A DNA stretch of 64,000 nt from Aquisphaera giovannonii. GTDB taxonomy: Bacteria > Planctomycetota > Planctomycetia > Isosphaerales > Isosphaeraceae. The notes beneath the pieces are model-generated. The model had not been told where the DNA came from. It searched no databases and saw only the letters and a program-made list of their open reading frames with translations. Below, piece by piece: positions 12,016 to 19,621 of the stretch (position 1 is the stretch's first letter; every line of letters begins with the position of its first letter). The position numbers were made by a program, and so were the translations under genes. The stretch spans positions 3,596,001-3,660,000 of the forward strand of contig NZ_CP042997.1 in assembly GCF_008087625.1 (NCBI RefSeq), read 5' to 3'.

Positions 12016-13104
12016 TCACGGCTCGACGCCGAGCCGCTCCCTCAAGGCATTGAAGGTGGACGGTGCGTCCTTCTCGAAGACGAACTGGGCCGGGAGGCCG
12101 ACGATCCGGCTGGCCCCCAGCGAGAACAGCACCCGCTGGCATGCGTTGAGCTTGCGGGTGGCCAGCAGCGCCGTGAGCCGCCAGCCGGGTCGGCCGCGCT
12201 CGTCCCAGACCTCGCCGCGGACCAGGTGCTTGGCCCCTCGCTCGTCCAGGTAGCTCGCCACGGCGGCGGCCGCGTCCGCGGTGGGCGATCCCGGCTCGAT
12301 GGGCCCGCCGACCACCTCCAGGTGGAGCAGGCCCTCGGACCGCTTCACGCCGTCGATCGCGTCCAGCAGCAGGGCGAGCTCCCCGGCCTCGCCCTCGCGG
12401 GCCAGCGAGGCCAGGCTGGGCGCGTGGCCGACGAGGCAGGCGGCCGAGTCCAGGACGATCCCGCCGCCGATCTCCCGCAGGCGGTTGTCCTTGAGCGTCG
12501 TCCCGGAGCTCGTCAGGTCCACGATGATGTCGGAGATCCCCAGGCTGGGGTGCAGCTCCAGCGCGCCGTCCGAATGGATCAACTGATAGTAATAGATGCC
12601 CCACTTGCGGAAGTACTGGCGGACGAGCGCCGGGTACTTCGTGGAGACGCGGAACGACTTGCCCGCGGCCTTGAACTCGGTCGTCAGGTCGACCAGGTCC
12701 ATGATGTGGCCGACGTCGATCCAGCTCTCCGGCACGGCGACGACCAGCCGGCAGCCGCCGTATCCTAGGTCCGGGATGACGACCGCGGCGTCCTCGGCCT
12801 CGAAGGCGTGCTCGGCGTAGACGTCCATCCCGGTCACGCCCAGGTGGCAGCGCCCCTCCTGGACCTGGATGACGATGTCGGTCGGCCGCATGAAGACGAC
12901 GTGGAACCGGGGCTGGCCGGCGATCGTCGCCTCGTACTGGCGGTCGCTGGCGCGCCGGACCTTGTAGCCGGCGGTCTTCAGCAGCTCCACGACCCCCTCG
13001 TACAGGTGCCCCTTGCTGGGGACGGCCAGGCGGATCGGGTCGATGGGCGCGTTCAAGGTCGGGCTCGCGGTCGCGGGTGTTGGGGTCGGAATCGGCGTGC
13101 TCAC
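12016..13104 (-). CDS. hisG: ATP phosphoribosyltransferase with C-terminal extension
   Basis: The product catalyses the first step of histidine synthesis, joining ATP and PRPP. The PRPP-binding loop [13 protein letters not shown] is at residues 192-204 and the N-terminal substrate region [11 protein letters not shown] at 24-34. At 362 residues it is far longer than the short HisG form (about 210) and longer than the usual long form (about 290-300). It has a Pro/Thr-rich N-terminal tail of about 22 residues and about 120 residues after the catalytic part. The last 60 residues ([16 protein letters not shown]) could be a diverged regulatory domain. The start overlaps the stop of the upstream HisZ/HisS-like gene by 4 bp, so translation is probably coupled. 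Confidence 0.88.
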
Positions 13105-14702
13105 GGACGGTCCCCCCGGAAGACGGCCAGGCGGGCCCGCATCTGCTCGATGAGCTCCCCCTCGCGGACGGAGCGGACGTCGCCCTGCTCGAGGTTCCAG
13201 ACCTCGATGGCCGGCCCGACCGTCACGACCTGGCCCAGCCCGAGCGCCCGGGCCTGGGCGACGGCGGCGGGGAAGCTCAGCTCGGAGAGGACGATCGGCA
13301 CGTTGATCCGCTCCCGGAGGAAGGTCGCCAGGTCGATGGCCGCGGCCAGGTTGGAGGCCGCGCGTCTCGCGTCCGATGCCGGCCCGGACGCCGCGCTGAC
13401 GAGATACCCGCGCGCGTCGCCGTTTCGGTGCGGGCGGCTCTCGCCGCGGGCCTCGCGGACCTCCAGCAGCCGTTCCAGGCCGAAGGCGAACCCCGCGCCC
13501 CGGGCGTCGCGGGGGGAGCCCAGGACGGTGGCCAGCCCGTCATAACGGCCGCCGCCGCAGACCTCCCGGGGGCCGCCCGGCGTGGGCACGACCAGCTCGA
13601 AGATCATCTGGGTGTAGAAGCCGATCCCGCGGCCGAAGCCCATGTCGAGCTCGACGCGGCCCGGGTCGACGCCGTGGTGCCCGAGGGCCTCCATCAGGTC
13701 CCGCAGCGCGGCGACCGAATCCGGGGCATGCCGGGCGTGGTCGCGCTCCAGCCGCTCCAGGACCTCGCCCGCGGGCCCCTTCAGGGCGGCCAGGGCGTGG
13801 ACCTGCTCGCGGACGCGCCCCAGGACGTCGGCCAGCGTGTGGCCCAGGGTCCACTTCCGCGTCAGGCGGTGGATGATCTCCTCGCCCGAGCGCCGGCCGG
13901 TGACGTTGGGCACGAGCTGCCGGAAGAGCCGCTCCACGCCGGCGGCCGGGCCGGCGGCCCCCCCGGCCTGGCCCGGGGCGCCGCCGTCGCCCGTCGCGCC
14001 CAGCCAGCCCGAGAGCCGCTCCAGCGCCGCCTCGATGGCCCGGACGTTCTGCCCCTCGGCGGCCGCCGCGCTGAGCGACTCGACCAGGGCCGAGACCGCC
14101 GCCGGGGGCAGGCCGGAGCGGCCGAGCAGCTCGAGGATCAGGCCGACGTGGCCGACCCGGATCGTCGCGTCGCCGAAGCCGATCGACCGCAGCGACCAGT
14201 CGGCCAGCCAGATGACCTCGGCGTCGGCCGCCGCGCCCCCCGCGCCGATCAGCTCGACGCCCACCTGGGTGAACTCGCGGTCGCGGCCCGGCCCGGTGGG
14301 CTGGAAGCGGAAGGCCGGCCCGGACATGCTCACGCGGAAGGGAAGGGGGGGCGGCTCCTCCGCCTCGGCGTACGCCCGGACGAGGCTCGCCGTCAGCTCC
14401 GGGCGGAGGCAGACCTCCGTGGTCTCCCCGCCACCGACCTCGAACAGCTTCGCCACGATCCCCGCGCCGCTCTTCCGCTCGTGCAGCTCGGCGAACTCCA
14501 GGATCGGCGTCCGGACCGGCCGGTAGCCGGCGCGGCCGAACTGGTCCAGGAGCTGCCGCTCGATCTCCGCGAGCCGCGCGAAGTCGTCGGGCAGCCAGTC
14601 CCGCGTCCCCCGGACGCGCCCGACCGGACGCTCGGCGACCGCGGCCGCGCCGGGATCGGGGCCGGCTTCCGCCGGCCGGGAGGGTGCCGGGCCCCCGCTC
14701 AT
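13101..14702 (-). CDS. hisZ: HisS paralogue, probable ATP-phosphoribosyltransferase regulatory subunit (HisZ-like)
   Basis: This is a class II histidyl-tRNA-synthetase-like protein of 533 residues with recognisable motif 2 (the FRFQPTGPGRDREFTQVG region) and motif 3 (FAFGLERLLE) and a CGGGRYDGL segment. It lies between hisS and hisG, overlapping each by 4 bp. HisZ proteins are HisS paralogues that form the regulatory subunit with short HisG, and the position next to hisG supports that role. It is unusually long for HisZ: it keeps a C-terminal domain of about 95 residues resembling the HisS anticodon-binding fold, and has an Ala/Gly-rich insertion near 13970. A second, specialised histidyl-tRNA synthetase is the alternative. 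Confidence 0.72.
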   Translation of the reverse strand: MSGGPAPSRPAEAGPDPGAAAVAERPVGRVRGTRDWLPDDFARLAEIERQLLDQFGRAGYRPVRTPILEFAELHERKSGAGIVAKLFEVGGGETTEVCLRPELTASLVRAYAEAEEPPPLPFRVSMSGPAFRFQPTGPGRDREFTQVGVELIGAGGAAADAEVIWLADWSLRSIGFGDATIRVGHVGLILELLGRSGLPPAAVSALVESLSAAAAEGQNVRAIEAALERLSGWLGATGDGGAPGQAGGAAGPAAGVERLFRQLVPNVTGRRSGEEIIHRLTRKWTLGHTLADVLGRVREQVHALAALKGPAGEVLERLERDHARHAPDSVAALRDLMEALGHHGVDPGRVELDMGFGRGIGFYTQMIFELVVPTPGGPREVCGGGRYDGLATVLGSPRDARGAGFAFGLERLLEVREARGESRPHRNGDARGYLVSAASGPASDARRAASNLAAAIDLATFLRERINVPIVLSELSFPAAVAQARALGLGQVVTVGPAIEVWNLEQGDVRSVREGELIEQMRARLAVFRGDRP

Positions 14703-16069
14703 GACTGGGCCCTTTCCTGCTCGAGGGCCTGAAGGACGCTGTGCACGGAGTCCACCAGCACCGACCAGGAGAGCCCCTTGTCCTCCTGCCTCGTGGCCAG
14801 GTTCCTCAGGTTGAACACCTGCCGTCCGGCCTCATCCGGGCCGACGATGATCGCGATCTTGTGCCCGTGGTTCGAGCCGTAGCCCATCTGCTTGCCCACC
14901 TGGATCGGCTCCGGATAGACCTCCGCGCCGATGCCCGCGGCCCGGAGCTCGGCCGCCATGCGGAAGGGGATCGCCGGGTCGGTGCCGGGGAAGTTGGCCA
15001 GCAGCACCGGCGTGCCCTTCGCCATCCCCTTCAGCCAGCCGGCCTCGTCCATCAGGGCGAGCAGCCGGTCCAGGCCGATCGACGCCCCCACGCCCGGCAG
15101 GCGCCGCGAGGTGAACAGGCTGGCCAGGTTGTCGTACCGCCCGCCCGACGCCACGCTCCCGAACCGCTCCCAACCCTTGATCGTGGTCTCGAACACGATC
15201 CCCGTGTAGTAATCCAGCCCTCGGGCCAGCCCGAGGTCGATGGAGACCCGATCCTCCGGCACGCCCGCCGCCGAGAGCAGGTCGAGCACCGTCCGCAGGT
15301 TGGCGATCCCCTGGCCGGCCAGCGGCCGGGTGCCCAGGGCGTTCTCGGCCTCGCGGAGCACCTCGACTCCGCCGCGGCCCCCCTCGGCGAACTCGAGCAC
15401 CCGCGACGCCTGGTCCCCGGTCAGGCCGGGCGTCCCATCTCCGGTCGGCTTCTGGAGCTCGGCGAGGACGGCGTCGCGGCCCGCCTTGGCCAGCTTGTCG
15501 AGCGACCGCAGCACCTGCCCGCTGCGGCCGGCGAGGTCCAGCGACTCGAGCATGCCGTCGAGGATCTTGCGGTTGTTCAGCGTGATCGTGAAGTCCGGCA
15601 CGCCGGCCGCGGACAGGGCGTCGTGGATGACCTGGGCGGTCTCGGCGTCGGAGAGGACGCTCTCGGTGCCGATCGTGTCGAAGTCGCACTGGACGAACTC
15701 GCGGAACCGCCCCTTGGCCGGCCGCTCGCCGCGGAAGACCGAGCCGATCGCGTACCGCTTGAAGGGGATCCCCAGCTCGTCCACGTGCTTCGCCACGAAC
15801 CGGGCCAGGGGGACCGTAAGGTCGAATCGGAGGGCCAATTCGCCGGGCGTGCCGCCCTTGTTCGTGACCTCGAAGATCTGGCGCAGCACCTCGTCCGAGC
15901 CCGCCCCCTTGCCGGCGAGGACCTCCATGCGCTCGATGTGCGGGGTCTCGATCGGCACGAAGCCGAAGGCGCCGAAGGTCCGCCGGAAGGTCGCGAGCAT
16001 CCGCTCGCGCGGGATCATCACCGAGGGGGGCAAGTCCCGCAGCCCGCTGGCCACGCGGGGATCGATCAT
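14699..16069 (-). CDS. hisS: Histidyl-tRNA synthetase
   Basis: The 456-residue class II synthetase charges tRNA-His. The histidine-binding signature LDLGLARGLDYYTGIVFE and the motif 3 region GVGASIGLDRLLAL are present, and a C-terminal anticodon-binding domain starts near the GTPVLLANFPG stretch. The start at 16069 has GAAGGAAG about 9 nt upstream; the frame stays open further upstream but that part is not protein-like. The stop overlaps the next gene's start by 4 bp. It is the first gene of hisS-hisZ-hisG, so tRNA charging and histidine synthesis are transcribed together. Confidence 0.95.
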   Translation of the reverse strand: MIDPRVASGLRDLPPSVMIPRERMLATFRRTFGAFGFVPIETPHIERMEVLAGKGAGSDEVLRQIFEVTNKGGTPGELALRFDLTVPLARFVAKHVDELGIPFKRYAIGSVFRGERPAKGRFREFVQCDFDTIGTESVLSDAETAQVIHDALSAAGVPDFTITLNNRKILDGMLESLDLAGRSGQVLRSLDKLAKAGRDAVLAELQKPTGDGTPGLTGDQASRVLEFAEGGRGGVEVLREAENALGTRPLAGQGIANLRTVLDLLSAAGVPEDRVSIDLGLARGLDYYTGIVFETTIKGWERFGSVASGGRYDNLASLFTSRRLPGVGASIGLDRLLALMDEAGWLKGMAKGTPVLLANFPGTDPAIPFRMAAELRAAGIGAEVYPEPIQVGKQMGYGSNHGHKIAIIVGPDEAGRQVFNLRNLATRQEDKGLSWSVLVDSVHSVLQALEQERAQS

Positions 16070-16645
16070 GGACGCACTTCCTTCACTCGTTCGCGAGGTC
16101 ACGGTACGCACGGCATCGTCGAAGAGCCCGGGATTGTACCATCCCGGCCCGCCCGCGGACGACCGGGCAGGCCGCTCGACGCCGATGAATGGGCGCCCCG
16201 CCGCGGCAACCGGCCCGCGGGGCGGGAGCACCGCGACGAGGCAGAATCGGCTTTGATCGTCGCGCCTCGGATTGCGACTCCCACGGCAATCCCCGTGTAG
16301 TCTCAACGACTTATGGAAAATGGCCCGGCCGGCTATGTTGGTCGTTTTTTCGCGAGCGTGCGGACGCCGGGATCCTCGACGGCCCGGGTCGAGGGCCTTC
16401 CGATGCGCGTCATCGCGGACGATGATGTTCATGAGAAGCGTCCCACGGTCCTATCCTCGGCGCGCGCATTCCGCGCACGATCATCGGATAGGATCACGCC
16501 GGCGGCCCGGCCAATTTCACCGGCAGCGAGGATTTGGTGTCCGCGGTTTGTTGTCACCTCCCGCCCCCGGACCGCCACCTTGAGGTGGAGAGGGACGCAC
16601 GGCCGCGGTGGCCGGCAAGGCTGGTCGAGTTGAGAGTGCCGGACG
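16070..16645. other. Divergent intergenic region (576 bp)
   Basis: This gap separates the divergent hisS operon and the sigma-protease fusion gene and should hold both promoters. I found no hexamer pair with good spacing, no T-box-like leader for hisS, and no convincing small gene. A short T run lies at about 16346-16351 (TTTTTT). Confidence 0.45.
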
Positions 16646-19621
16646 ATGAGGGGGATGAGAATGCAGGCCGACAGCACTCCGGGAGCGGACGCGGAGATCT
16701 GGCGGGAGGTCCGGGAAGGGAGCGTCGCGGCCTTCGAGACCCTGGTGCGACGCCATCAGTCCCTGATCTGCGCCGTCGCGTACAGCGGCTGCGGCGACCT
16801 GGCCCTGAGCGAGGACCTCGCCCAGGAGACCTTCTGGGCGGCCTGGCGCCAACGGGCCTCCCTGAAGAGTCCCGAGCGGGTCACGGCCTGGCTCTGCGGG
16901 ATCGCGCGGAACCTGGCCAGGAACGCCCACCGCAAGGAGGCCCATCGCCGGCAAGCGGCGCCGGACGCCGACCTCCTGGCCCGCGTCCCGGGCGGCGACC
17001 CGGAGCCCGCCGAGGAGGCCGTCTCGCGCGAGGAGGAATCGCTCATCTGGAAGGCGCTCGAGCGGCTCCCCGAAGACTATCGCGAACCGCTCGTGCTCTT
17101 CTACCGGGAGGGTCAGTCGGTCGCGGAGACCGCCGCGGCGATGGGCCTGAGCGAGGACGCCGTCAAGCAACGCCTGGCCCGCGGCCGTCGGATGCTGCGG
17201 GCGAGCATGAGCGGCCTCGTCGAGGACGGCCTGCGCCGCAGCCGCCCGGGGCGGCGGTTCACGGCGACGGTCCTGGCCGGACTGGCCGCGCACGGGGCCG
17301 GCGCCGAGGCCGCCTCGGCCGCGACCGCAACCGGCGCGGGCGTCGCGGCCTGGAAGGCCTCGGCCGGGGCCGCCGGGGCGGGCGGGGCGATCGGGGGGCT
17401 GCTCGGCACGCTGGGCGGCCTGCTCGGCGGCTGGCTCGGCACCTGGCTCCCGGCCCAGGCCGCCGCGAGCCGCCGCGAGCGCGACGCGATCCTGCTCGCC
17501 GGCCGCCGCATGATGGCCGTCTCCATCGCCCTCCTCGTCGTCCTGCTCGGCCCGATCCGCGCGTACGCCGGGACGCCCGCGTACCTCCTCGCCTGGGGCG
17601 GCTGGATGGCCACCTTCGCCGCCCTCGTCGGCGCCGAGTGCCTCCGCCTGGCCCGGGAGGTGCAGCGAATCCGCGCCGAGCCGATGACCGACGACGCGCC
17701 GAACGACACGTCGCTTCGGGCGGGGCTCGCCGCGGCGTCGGGCTGGGTCGGCGGCAGGAGCTATCGGAGCGACGCCACCCTATTCGGCCTCCCGCTGATC
17801 GACGTCCAGCTCACCGCCCCGAAGCCGCCGGGCCCGGGCGAGGACTTCCCGGGGCGCGATCAGGGCCGGCGGATCGCCCGCGGGTGGGTCGCGATAGGCG
17901 ACGACGCCCGGGGGCTGCTGCTGGCGGTCGGCGCCACGGCACGCGGCCTCGTCGCGCTGGGCGGCCGGGCGTTCGGCGCCTTGAGCATCGGGGGGCTGGC
18001 GGTGGGCCTGGTGAGCCTCGGCGGGGTCGGGATCGGCGTCGCCGGGATCGGCGGCCTCGGCGCGGGGGTCTATGCGATCGGCGGCGGGGCCGTCGGGTGG
18101 AGGGCGGCCGGCGGGATCGCGCTCGGCTGGGACCTCGCCTGCGGGGGAGGCGCGGTCGCGCGGCACGCGGCCCTCGGCGGGGCGGCCTTCGCCCGCGATT
18201 ACGCCGTCGGCGGCCAGGCCCGCGCGGCACACGCGAACGACGACGCCGCGCGGGCCGCCCTCCTGGATGACCCGTTCACGAGGATCGCCCTCACCGCGAT
18301 GGGCCAGCAGGGCGTGCTCGACAGGATCCGCTCGCCGCGGGGCGGGGGAGCCCAGCTCCCTGGCCAGGCGCCGCCGCCGGAAACGAGGGGCGATTTCGGT
18401 CTCGATAACGGCCTCGCCGTGAGGATCCGGCCCATCGAGGGGGCAGATCGCGCGGCGCTGGTGGTCCTGTACAAGATCGGGGGCGACCACGACCCGCCGG
18501 GCCGTTCCGGCCTGGCCCACCTGCTGGAGCACCTCGCGGTCACGTCGGCGGCCGGCGACTCTCCGTCCCGCACCGCGGAGGGCTTCTACCGCTCGCATCC
18601 GGCCGGCTGCAACGCGCAGACGGGCGACCGCTACACCGCGCTCGCCACCGTCTTCCCGCCGCAGGACCTGGATCGGGAACTCCGGGAGGCGGCGGCCCGG
18701 ATGGGCCGACTCCGGATCACTCCCGCCGACCTCGATCGCGAGCGCCCACGCCTCCTCGACGAGGTCGCCAACATGTTCGGCCGGATCCCGTCGCTCGGGG
18801 CCATCAACGTCGCCAGGGAGCTCGTGCGGCCGGCTCCCCACGGCGGCCGCAAGGGCGGCCTCCCGGAGCAAGTCGCGGCGATCCCCCTCGAGGAATTGCG
18901 GGCCCGCTGGGATCGCTACTACAAGCCCCGGAACGCGATCCTCGTCCTGGCCGGTGCGATCGACCAGGACGCGGCCCGGCGGGCCGTGACGGACCACTTC
19001 GCCGGGCTCGCGCCCGGTGAGCTCATCCCGCCGCCATCCGGGCCCGGTCCGTTGCGAGCCGGCGCCGTCCGCGAGCTGTCCGTGCGGCCGATCGGGCCGA
19101 AGGCCGGCCCGGTTGCCTGCGTCGGCTACGCGGCCCCCGACCCGAGGAGCGACCTCTACGCGCCGTTCCTCGTCCTCGCAGCCCGATTCTGGGCGGCCTC
19201 GGCGACGCAGAATGGCGGCGAGCCCGGCCGGCCGTCGGTCTATTTCCCCGTGCTCGACGACCCCGCCATGCTGGCCGTGAGTGCGACGGCCAGGGCGGGC
19301 GAGACGGCCGCGCAGTCGTTCGCGCGGCTGGAGTCGTTCGTCGCCGACACGGTCGCCCCGCCGCTCCGCGACGGGGAGCGGGAGGCCGCCCGGATGAACT
19401 TCGCGATGTTCCTCGGGACGGCCGAGATGCCGGACGCCGCCCTCGCCCGGAACCCTTACGGCGCGGCGTTCGCCCTCGCCCGCCGCGAGCAACTGGGCAT
19501 CGACCCGGCCGCGGTCGGCCGTGCGTTCGACGCCCTAACCGACCGCGACCTCCGTCGCGCGGCCGACGAGGCGTTCGCCCCGGGCCGGAAGGTCGGTGTT
19601 CGGATTGACCCCGGCGAATGA
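16646..19621 (+). CDS. ECF sigma factor - membrane - M16 metalloprotease fusion
   Basis: One uninterrupted frame of 991 codons. Residues about 28-97 form sigma region 2 (SEDLAQETFWAAWRQR) and about 134-188 sigma region 4 (LPEDYREPLVLFYREGQSVAETAAAMGL is the stretch at 141-168, followed by a helix-turn-helix). An Ala/Gly-rich linker leads to two probable membrane segments at about 288-304 and 311-332. Residues 422-500 are a glycine-rich, hydrophobic repeat. From about 580 to the end is an M16B-sized peptidase: the inverted zinc motif HLLEH is at 625-629 and the third ligand candidate Glu706 lies 77 residues after His629, the same distance as in pitrilysin. The catalytic domain therefore looks intact. 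ATG codons at 16655 and 16661 are alternative starts; the GAGGGGG before 16661 favours the latter. The proposed role, a membrane-held transcription factor carrying its own protease, is inference. Confidence 0.85.
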   Translation: MRGMRMQADSTPGADAEIWREVREGSVAAFETLVRRHQSLICAVAYSGCGDLALSEDLAQETFWAAWRQRASLKSPERVTAWLCGIARNLARNAHRKEAHRRQAAPDADLLARVPGGDPEPAEEAVSREEESLIWKALERLPEDYREPLVLFYREGQSVAETAAAMGLSEDAVKQRLARGRRMLRASMSGLVEDGLRRSRPGRRFTATVLAGLAAHGAGAEAASAATATGAGVAAWKASAGAAGAGGAIGGLLGTLGGLLGGWLGTWLPAQAAASRRERDAILLAGRRMMAVSIALLVVLLGPIRAYAGTPAYLLAWGGWMATFAALVGAECLRLAREVQRIRAEPMTDDAPNDTSLRAGLAAASGWVGGRSYRSDATLFGLPLIDVQLTAPKPPGPGEDFPGRDQGRRIARGWVAIGDDARGLLLAVGATARGLVALGGRAFGALSIGGLAVGLVSLGGVGIGVAGIGGLGAGVYAIGGGAVGWRAAGGIALGWDLACGGGAVARHAALGGAAFARDYAVGGQARAAHANDDAARAALLDDPFTRIALTAMGQQGVLDRIRSPRGGGAQLPGQAPPPETRGDFGLDNGLAVRIRPIEGADRAALVVLYKIGGDHDPPGRSGLAHLLEHLAVTSAAGDSPSRTAEGFYRSHPAGCNAQTGDRYTALATVFPPQDLDRELREAAARMGRLRITPADLDRERPRLLDEVANMFGRIPSLGAINVARELVRPAPHGGRKGGLPEQVAAIPLEELRARWDRYYKPRNAILVLAGAIDQDAARRAVTDHFAGLAPGELIPPPSGPGPLRAGAVRELSVRPIGPKAGPVACVGYAAPDPRSDLYAPFLVLAARFWAASATQNGGEPGRPSVYFPVLDDPAMLAVSATARAGETAAQSFARLESFVADTVAPPLRDGEREAARMNFAMFLGTAEMPDAALARNPYGAAFALARREQLGIDPAAVGRAFDALTDRDLRRAADEAFAPGRKVGVRIDPGE

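Follow-up and report, generated by a model that had tools for sequence, protein, structure and literature searches.

What does a zinc-protease subunit do when it is carried on the same polypeptide as a sigma factor? The question is posed by one gene in a 64,000-nucleotide stretch of Aquisphaera giovannonii DNA (contig NZ_CP042997.1, positions 3,596,001 to 3,660,000; this whole stretch is referred to here as the window), whose product joins an extracytoplasmic function (ECF) sigma factor, a membrane region, a glycine-rich beta-solenoid and an M16B peptidase subunit. An earlier note on this DNA had proposed that sensor, anchor, protease and sigma factor might form one polypeptide able to release its own sigma part. 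We put at about even the chance that the protein is instead a single-chain, membrane-tethered ECF switch, with the M16B arm serving as effector or peptide sensor and not as the protease that frees the sigma factor.

The gene product spans 991 residues without internal stops, and the presence of sigma regions 2 and 4 and an M16 part in a single frame was borne out by Pfam, all four matches (the two sigma regions, Peptidase_M16 at residues 600–708, E 6.6e-6, and Peptidase_M16_C at residues 746–845, E 7.3e-7) exceeding the curated cut-offs. Direct reading likewise confirmed the zinc motif and the third ligand at the spacing that had been named (Table 1). The sigma part scored 89.5 bits against TIGR02937 (cut-off 42.9) and is of the ECF type, regions 2 and 4 being present and the region 3 family not being among the matches. 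For the M16 part (residues 576–989), VIA-align matched the M16B crystal structures 5euf_B (Z 34.1, root-mean-square deviation (rmsd) 3.3, 398 aligned residues) and 3ami_A (Z 32.7, rmsd 3.4, 399 aligned), the latter also being found by Foldseek (E 3.2e-22); together with the Pfam matches, these identify a two-domain M16B subunit fold.

In the AlphaFold model of the protein (mean predicted local distance difference test (pLDDT) score 83.8, predicted template modelling score (pTM) 0.53), pLDDT fell below 50 at residues 1–10, 104–120 (a short stretch linking the helices of region 2 to those of region 4), 195–247, 402–405 and 565–580, whereas block values of 91–95 were reached across residues 411–550. 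The "about two membrane segments" of the earlier note proved to be a membrane region of three helices, the first of which may not span, and its "glycine-rich repeat" is indeed rich in glycine and predicted to be an all-strand, solenoid-like structure. No fold match to the membrane region plus solenoid was returned by Foldseek at E <0.1, and a later structure comparison gave helical-bundle matches over residues 2–148 only (best: Z 8.8, rmsd 2.5, 107 aligned), hardly covering the solenoid. Pfam revealed no zinc-finger, FecR-like or other anti-sigma domain in the protein (to E 1) and no WD40 repeat. Small stand-alone solenoid proteins of 135–199 residues occur in other planctomycetes (L116:3181-3717, L117:2926-3396, L118:3133-3609, L119:3172-3579 and L120:3582-4181; L, locus; G, genome, the own genome being G000), and the four of these that were scanned matched no Pfam family above cut-off. 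The glycine-rich solenoid is an unnamed repeat domain that deserves its own family.

Table 1. Coordinates of the fused gene, its parts and the upstream element in the window
Feature	Residues	Position	Strand	Evidence
Predicted autoregulatory ECF promoter element, TGTCACC-N15-GCCAC		16552..16578	+	Bipartite word common to upstream regions of homologues
Fused gene: ECF sigma, membrane region, beta-solenoid, M16B subunit	991 aa	16646..19621	+	Open reading frame, Pfam, relatives, dN/dS
Sigma-70 region 2	33-99	16742..16942	+	Pfam PF04542 (Sigma70_r2), E 3.5e-14
Sigma-70 region 4	134-184	17045..17197	+	Pfam PF08281 (Sigma70_r4_2), E 4.2e-15
Tether between sigma part and membrane region, low-confidence, probably flexible	195-247	17228..17386	+	pLDDT <50
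Membrane region, three helices (first glycine-rich)	243-271, 276-307, 312-344	17372..17677	+	DSSP on model, hydropathy, basic flanks of last two helices
Glycine-rich beta-solenoid	about 372-526	17759..18223	+	All-strand in model, no Pfam family, stand-alone homologues
Fusion linker, with neither the terminal membrane segment nor the signal peptide seen in relatives	546-584	18281..18397	+	Comparison with relatives
M16B peptidase subunit, both domains	585-991	18398..19618	+	PF00675 and PF05193, structure matches
Zinc motif HLLEH	625-629	18518..18532	+	HxxEH in 22/22 clade members read
Third zinc ligand, Glu706	706	18761..18763	+	Glu exactly 77 residues past second His in 21/22 clade members read

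A search of 45 genomes of the window's family with the M16 part as query (E <=1e-30) recovered it in 12 of them, at 13 loci, of which ten are fused to a sigma factor. Seven genomes carry the architecture of the window on one chain, namely the two of the window's genus (g1: G000 and G002) and five of a second genus (g14: G029, G062, G063, G015 and G036). In G006 and G027 the two parts are adjacent, separate genes on the same strand, one pair overlapping at stop and start codon (TGATG) and the other lying 88 bp apart, and in G010 the family search found the M16 without a sigma part. The remaining three loci (in G018, G059 and, as a second copy, G027) attach the same M16 to a different ECF sigma factor, which is 33–35% identical in the sigma part and shows no homology to the membrane and solenoid parts; in these fusions (L074:1-2373, L075:4854-7082 and L076:315-2609) a single hydrophobic segment joins sigma factor to M16.

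Between the window gene and its G002 counterpart, the ratio of nonsynonymous to synonymous substitution rates (dN/dS) was 0.29 overall and 0.18 in the catalytic N-terminal domain of the M16 part, while the linker (32 codons aligned) gave 0.28; purifying selection acts on every part of the fused gene. Because separate genomes of two genera share the architecture and selection maintains it, the fusion is not a product of chance, and the union of sigma factor, anchor and M16 on one polypeptide is genuine and conserved. Two outcomes that would have undone the claim are excluded: this is no lone fusion among homologues that are always separate, and a frameshift between two genes or an assembly artefact is ruled out by the seven genomes, both copies within the window's genus moreover lacking the same segments at the same junction.

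The two halves also occur apart. In a class-wide search (397 genomes, E <=1e-25; the class and phylum sets are samples of bigger groups), the M16 clade was found in 13 genomes, 12 of them from the window's family plus G197, and in a phylum sample it was found in 9 of 392, comprising the own genome and eight outside the class. All eight of the latter are separate genes encoding 423–455 residues, seven with a signal-like N-terminus as judged by eye (seven of nine when all M16 proteins read from outside the family are considered), and BLAST of the fetched stretches revealed no sigma homologue beside them, except for a partial, weakly scoring match at the far end of L200. The membrane–solenoid part (E <=1e-20) was present in 12 of the 45 family genomes, where it was fused in seven, split in two and without M16 in three. 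The sigma part is kept in G014, G035 and G064 without an M16 of this clade in the genome; the G035 contig stops ~800 bases past the gene in an assembly that is 89% complete, and the search of that genome yielded no M16 of the clade. Neither an M16 remnant in G064 nor a sigma remnant in G010 gave a credible match. At a threshold of E <=1e-10, the membrane–solenoid part appeared in 47 of the 397 class genomes, in many as small solenoid-only frames. By sequence, sigma factor, anchor and solenoid form a module that occurs without M16 in several planctomycete families.

At the G197 locus (L101:5268-7894), the stand-alone M16, without a signal as called, lies behind a DUF2089 helix-turn-helix gene and a second protein, which starts in a signal-like way and has membrane helices at its C-terminus; the three may be a further set of regulator, anchor and M16. 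Homology of these helices to the membrane region of the window protein was unsupported (hhalign probability 6.8%).

How the halves were joined can be followed at the junction. Most sigma proteins without M16 finish with a hydrophobic helix and an MYRR or similar motif, and the separate M16 proteins of the split relatives open with signals of lipoprotein type by appearance. In the g14 fusions, terminal helix and signal segment are both retained, the latter with a lipobox-like end in four of five (LAGCS, FSGCS, LAGCS and LAGCT); the fifth (L066) retains the hydrophobic segment without the cysteine. An in-frame ATG at the MYRR motif stands ahead of the signal segment in four of the five. In the window gene and G002, neither terminal membrane segment nor signal is present, the loss being the same in both and the reading frame kept, and inspection by eye of the three forward frames of the window's linker revealed no hidden membrane segment or signal peptide.

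These junctions bear on the possibility that the long product is a polyprotein, yielding an anchored sigma factor and a free M16, in which case fusion would merely be a way to make two proteins. In g14, lipoprotein signal peptidase might cut at the internal lipobox, or the M16 might be started separately at the MYRR ATG, and the lipobox-like ends and ATG codons present in four of five fusions each speak for such routes. However, the internal ATG is a candidate start only, and the window's genus possesses neither lipobox nor signal segment. We regard this explanation as unlikely.

In the M16 tree (from which the own-genome loci L128 and L130, devoid of HxxEH, and L132, the window's own match, were omitted), the 14 sequences of the family and G197 grouped together (100/100), to the exclusion of the own-genome M16 proteins that served as outgroup. 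The window's genus grouped with the split genera g5 and g9 (92/91), and no branching was resolved among g14, the other-sigma fusions and G197. The sigma-part tree joined the window's genus to the split genus g5 (99/97) and nested G064, which has no M16, inside the fused g14. On the simplest reading of these trees, a separate, exported M16 would have come to lie adjacent to the sigma gene and been fused to it at least twice, in g1 and in g14, with later loss in G064; a single fusion followed by fissions would be less simple. The relatives suggest that the M16 did not begin as a protease freeing the sigma factor.

Whether the M16 part is a whole enzyme is a further question. The earlier note had described a full-length M16B protease that looked active: one complete subunit is present and its zinc site is complete, but it amounts to half of the two-halves enzyme, and its activity as a lone unit is doubtful. 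An R-x6-Y string was found within the tested 48-residue stretch of the C-terminal domain in three of 22 clade members (L072, L077 and L202) and was absent in the window protein and 18 others; L072 and L077 share one such string ahead of the helix, while the second of L077 and that of L202 lie nearer the expected loop. According to PMC12731061, nearly every M16 member has this arginine–tyrosine (R/Y) pair, the mitochondrial processing peptidase (MPP) and bc1 core proteins excepted, and M16B enzymes are homo- or heterodimers. In the own genome, an active half without the pair (L121) adjoins a half that has it (L130, VREKRGLCY). Since the window's M16 resembles the L121 type, it would probably need a partner in trans or work in the manner of MPP; it looks like a catalytic half that requires a partner. 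Beside the window gene, neither a second M16 nor an anti-sigma gene was noticed in the gene map; the scan covered ten neighbouring proteins over this and other loci.

As for the side of the membrane on which this half resides, basic residues average 4.6 and 4.4 in the two loops that enclose the last two helices (24 sequences), vs. 1.25 in the loop between these helices, and no signal peptide or membrane segment was seen by eye in the stand-alone solenoids of L116, L118, L119 and L120 (the start of L117 is uncertain). The charge pattern and the signal-less solenoids together speak for a hairpin of the two helices with sigma factor and solenoid both cytoplasmic, which would place the M16 of the window's genus in the cytoplasm as well, an assignment we favour slightly over the opposite one. 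Where the M16 is fused to the other ECF factor (three loci), it probably lies outside, given the single hydrophobic segment (weak in L075) between sigma factor and M16.

This assignment matters for self-release, in which the M16 would cut the tether at residues 195–247 or the linker at 565–580, either in cis or, if dimeric, in trans. Low-confidence, probably flexible stretches do flank the anchored core on both sides, the complete zinc site falls in the domain of lowest dN/dS (0.18), and in the window's genus no hydrophobic segment intervenes between solenoid and M16, so that the M16 may be on the sigma side; yet the split relatives, which make the M16 separately and with a lipoprotein-like signal, and the retained signal segments of g14 put the M16 facing away from the sigma factor, and outside the class the M16 clade occurs without a sigma partner. 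Moreover, the R/Y pair is absent, and PMC12731061 describes M16 enzymes as enclosing their substrate in a closing shell of two halves, M16A/C and, as suggested, prokaryotic M16B acting on short peptides. With an ancestral M16 facing away from sigma, halves that survive apart and the R/Y pair missing, self-release as the earlier note had it finds no support across the family and is, at that level, unlikely. Self-cutting is topologically possible in the window's genus, whose M16 may have been left in the cytoplasm by loss of the terminal membrane segment and signal peptide. Taken in general, we judge the idea improbable.

Equally improbable, in our estimate, is that the M16 principally binds peptides, with cutting secondary, and relays peptide stress to the sigma factor by the opening and closing of its clam shell. 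Such a role would fit the presence of one M16 clade on two distinct ECF lineages, the regulatory function that is commonly ascribed to C-terminal extensions of ECF factors (PMC8999054), and the lack of an anti-sigma gene among the ten scanned neighbouring proteins. Binding alone, however, would not require invariant zinc ligands, and the AlphaFold model, whose pTM leaves the domains unfixed to each other, displays no contact between M16 and sigma factor. Very unlikely, finally, is a change confined to the window's genus, in which the lost segments would have drawn an exported protease into the cytoplasm, where a dimer, formed with itself or with an R/Y half, would cut the tether and free the sigma factor.

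The upstream regions supply a different kind of evidence. Pairs of GTCAC and CCAC words were found in up to 15 of 23 regions vs. a maximum of 4 to 6 in 20 shuffles, which kept single-base composition only. The element takes the form GTCACC-N15-GCCAC, with GACAC as second half in G002 and looser versions in more distant homologues. No element was detected within 350 bp upstream of L106, nor upstream of the M16 genes without this sigma factor in G010 and G197 or of the three other-sigma fusions. In the window it is the sole match (0 expected). Across 727,134 strand-bases (364 kb, made up of the window and of loci picked for holding these genes), 15 strict matches were counted: 14 precede such a gene, including that of the window and a broken copy in L109, with one match elsewhere and none for a reversed-pattern control; these 14 are neither blind nor independent, as the motif was derived from those same, related regions.

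A fairer test was provided by whole-genome searches, carried out in 12 genomes with two patterns and a reversed control, 30 matches of each pattern being made into loci. The pattern TGTCACC-N14..17-GCCAC gave 43 matches vs. 11 for its control, of which seven precede this gene, 11 belong to one repeated string and 25 are others. By the gene caller, 20 of the 30 loci of this looser pattern were intergenic, and 11 of these 20 had a same-strand start within 300 nt, seven of this gene and four of others. These last four (at the locus centres of L141, L144, L146 and L162, each in a different genome) are possibly further sigma targets or chance matches. YGTCACC-N14-YGCCACY gave 40 matches vs. 2, eight preceding this gene and 32 others; of its 30 loci, 21 lay inside called genes, two were unclassified and seven intergenic, six of these seven before this gene. 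The excess over the reversed control consists mostly of coding matches, a class that this control leaves unmodelled. The repeated string, 29 bases long and identical throughout, holds the loose pattern at three places in the own genome (C1:5179260, 7786414 and 9144175) and eight in G027 (Singulisphaera acidiphila); it is probably a shared mobile element. Conservation of the element before the sigma gene suggests autoregulation; among ECF factors, an autoregulated bipartite promoter is frequent though not universal.

In the single-chain switch that we favour, the sigma factor would sit at the membrane and, once active, drive its own gene or operon in a self-amplifying manner, so that the M16 arm would be made in proportion to sigma activity. 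This arm would be the effector or the peptide-sensing arm of the response, acting outside the cytoplasmic membrane in most relatives and, in the window's genus, on the side of the solenoid, which is more likely the cytoplasm. The sequence itself shows sigma factor, anchor, solenoid, M16 and promoter element, whereas location at the membrane, autoregulation and the part played by the M16 are inferred. Several points weigh against this account. The partner is not obligatory for either half, as G010 and G014, G035 and G064 demonstrate; that two sigma lineages carry the same M16 clade may point to a coupling, perhaps regulatory, closer than fusion within an operon would require; a few other intergenic matches to the element exist, and its dependence on this sigma factor is presumed. 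The cytoplasmic placement of solenoid and M16 in the window's genus, for its part, draws on charge and homologues: if the glycine-rich first helix also spanned, both would come to lie outside, and in g14, were the solenoid cytoplasmic and the last helix to span, the retained signal segment would be reversed, so that the helix would need to be re-entrant.

Among known systems, PMC8999054 describes ECF factors with a membrane anti-sigma extension, exemplified by IutY of Pseudomonas putida (ECF243) and SCO4117 of Streptomyces coelicolor (ECF52). Like these, the window protein has its sigma factor on the same chain as a membrane anchor, which would put the sigma factor at the membrane from the outset; unlike them, it has no anti-sigma domain that could be found and places a beta-solenoid between anchor and protease. 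IutY is freed, according to the same source, by the separate proteases Prc and RseP, whereas the window protein carries a zinc-protease subunit in its chain. There is also a likeness to ECF57, a planctomycete group with a same-family example in Singulisphaera acidiphila and a C-terminal extension, although this is not a group assignment; many of the ECF57 extensions have WD40-like repeats (PMC8999054), that of the window protein being made of helices, solenoid and M16. The M16 fold and zinc motif are shared with SPH2681/SPH2682 of Sphingomonas, PA0371/PA0372 and the H. pylori protease 5euf, but in contrast to such bacterial M16B proteins, the window protein lacks R-x6-Y in the loop, has no adjoining partner subunit in the gene map and bears a sigma factor on the same chain. 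BlaR1 and MecR1 likewise unite sensor, membrane anchor and zinc protease (of family M56) in one chain that leads to a transcriptional response, with a repressor and not a sigma factor as output; the resemblance extends to the one-chain idea and is only an analogy. In line with the earlier note, which knew of no described system of this kind, a full-text literature search yielded no paper recognisable as describing an ECF–M16 fusion, while the main ECF classification may already name the group.

The neighbourhood of the window gene comprises a DUF2961 gene on the other strand (scanned) and, identified by eye, histidine biosynthesis and tRNA synthetase genes. Three tightly packed genes divergent from the fused gene (12016-16432, − strand) were read by eye as HisG, HisZ and histidyl-tRNA synthetase. 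According to gene maps, drawn for loci other than the window by a home-made gene caller, the g14 members have common neighbours, and the window and G002 share the downstream clusters c15 and c16, which in the window are not directly beside the gene; no neighbour beside the fused gene was common to g1 and g14.

Sensor, anchor, protease and sigma factor are normally distributed among several proteins in ECF signalling; here, a single zinc-protease clade has become attached to an ECF sigma factor on more than one occasion. Living species keep the intermediates, with the parts separate, overlapping, fused with a signal, fused without one, or with one half missing. This natural series lets one ask whether the protease is regulator or output of the sigma factor, a question for which the conserved promoter element would provide a direct reporter.

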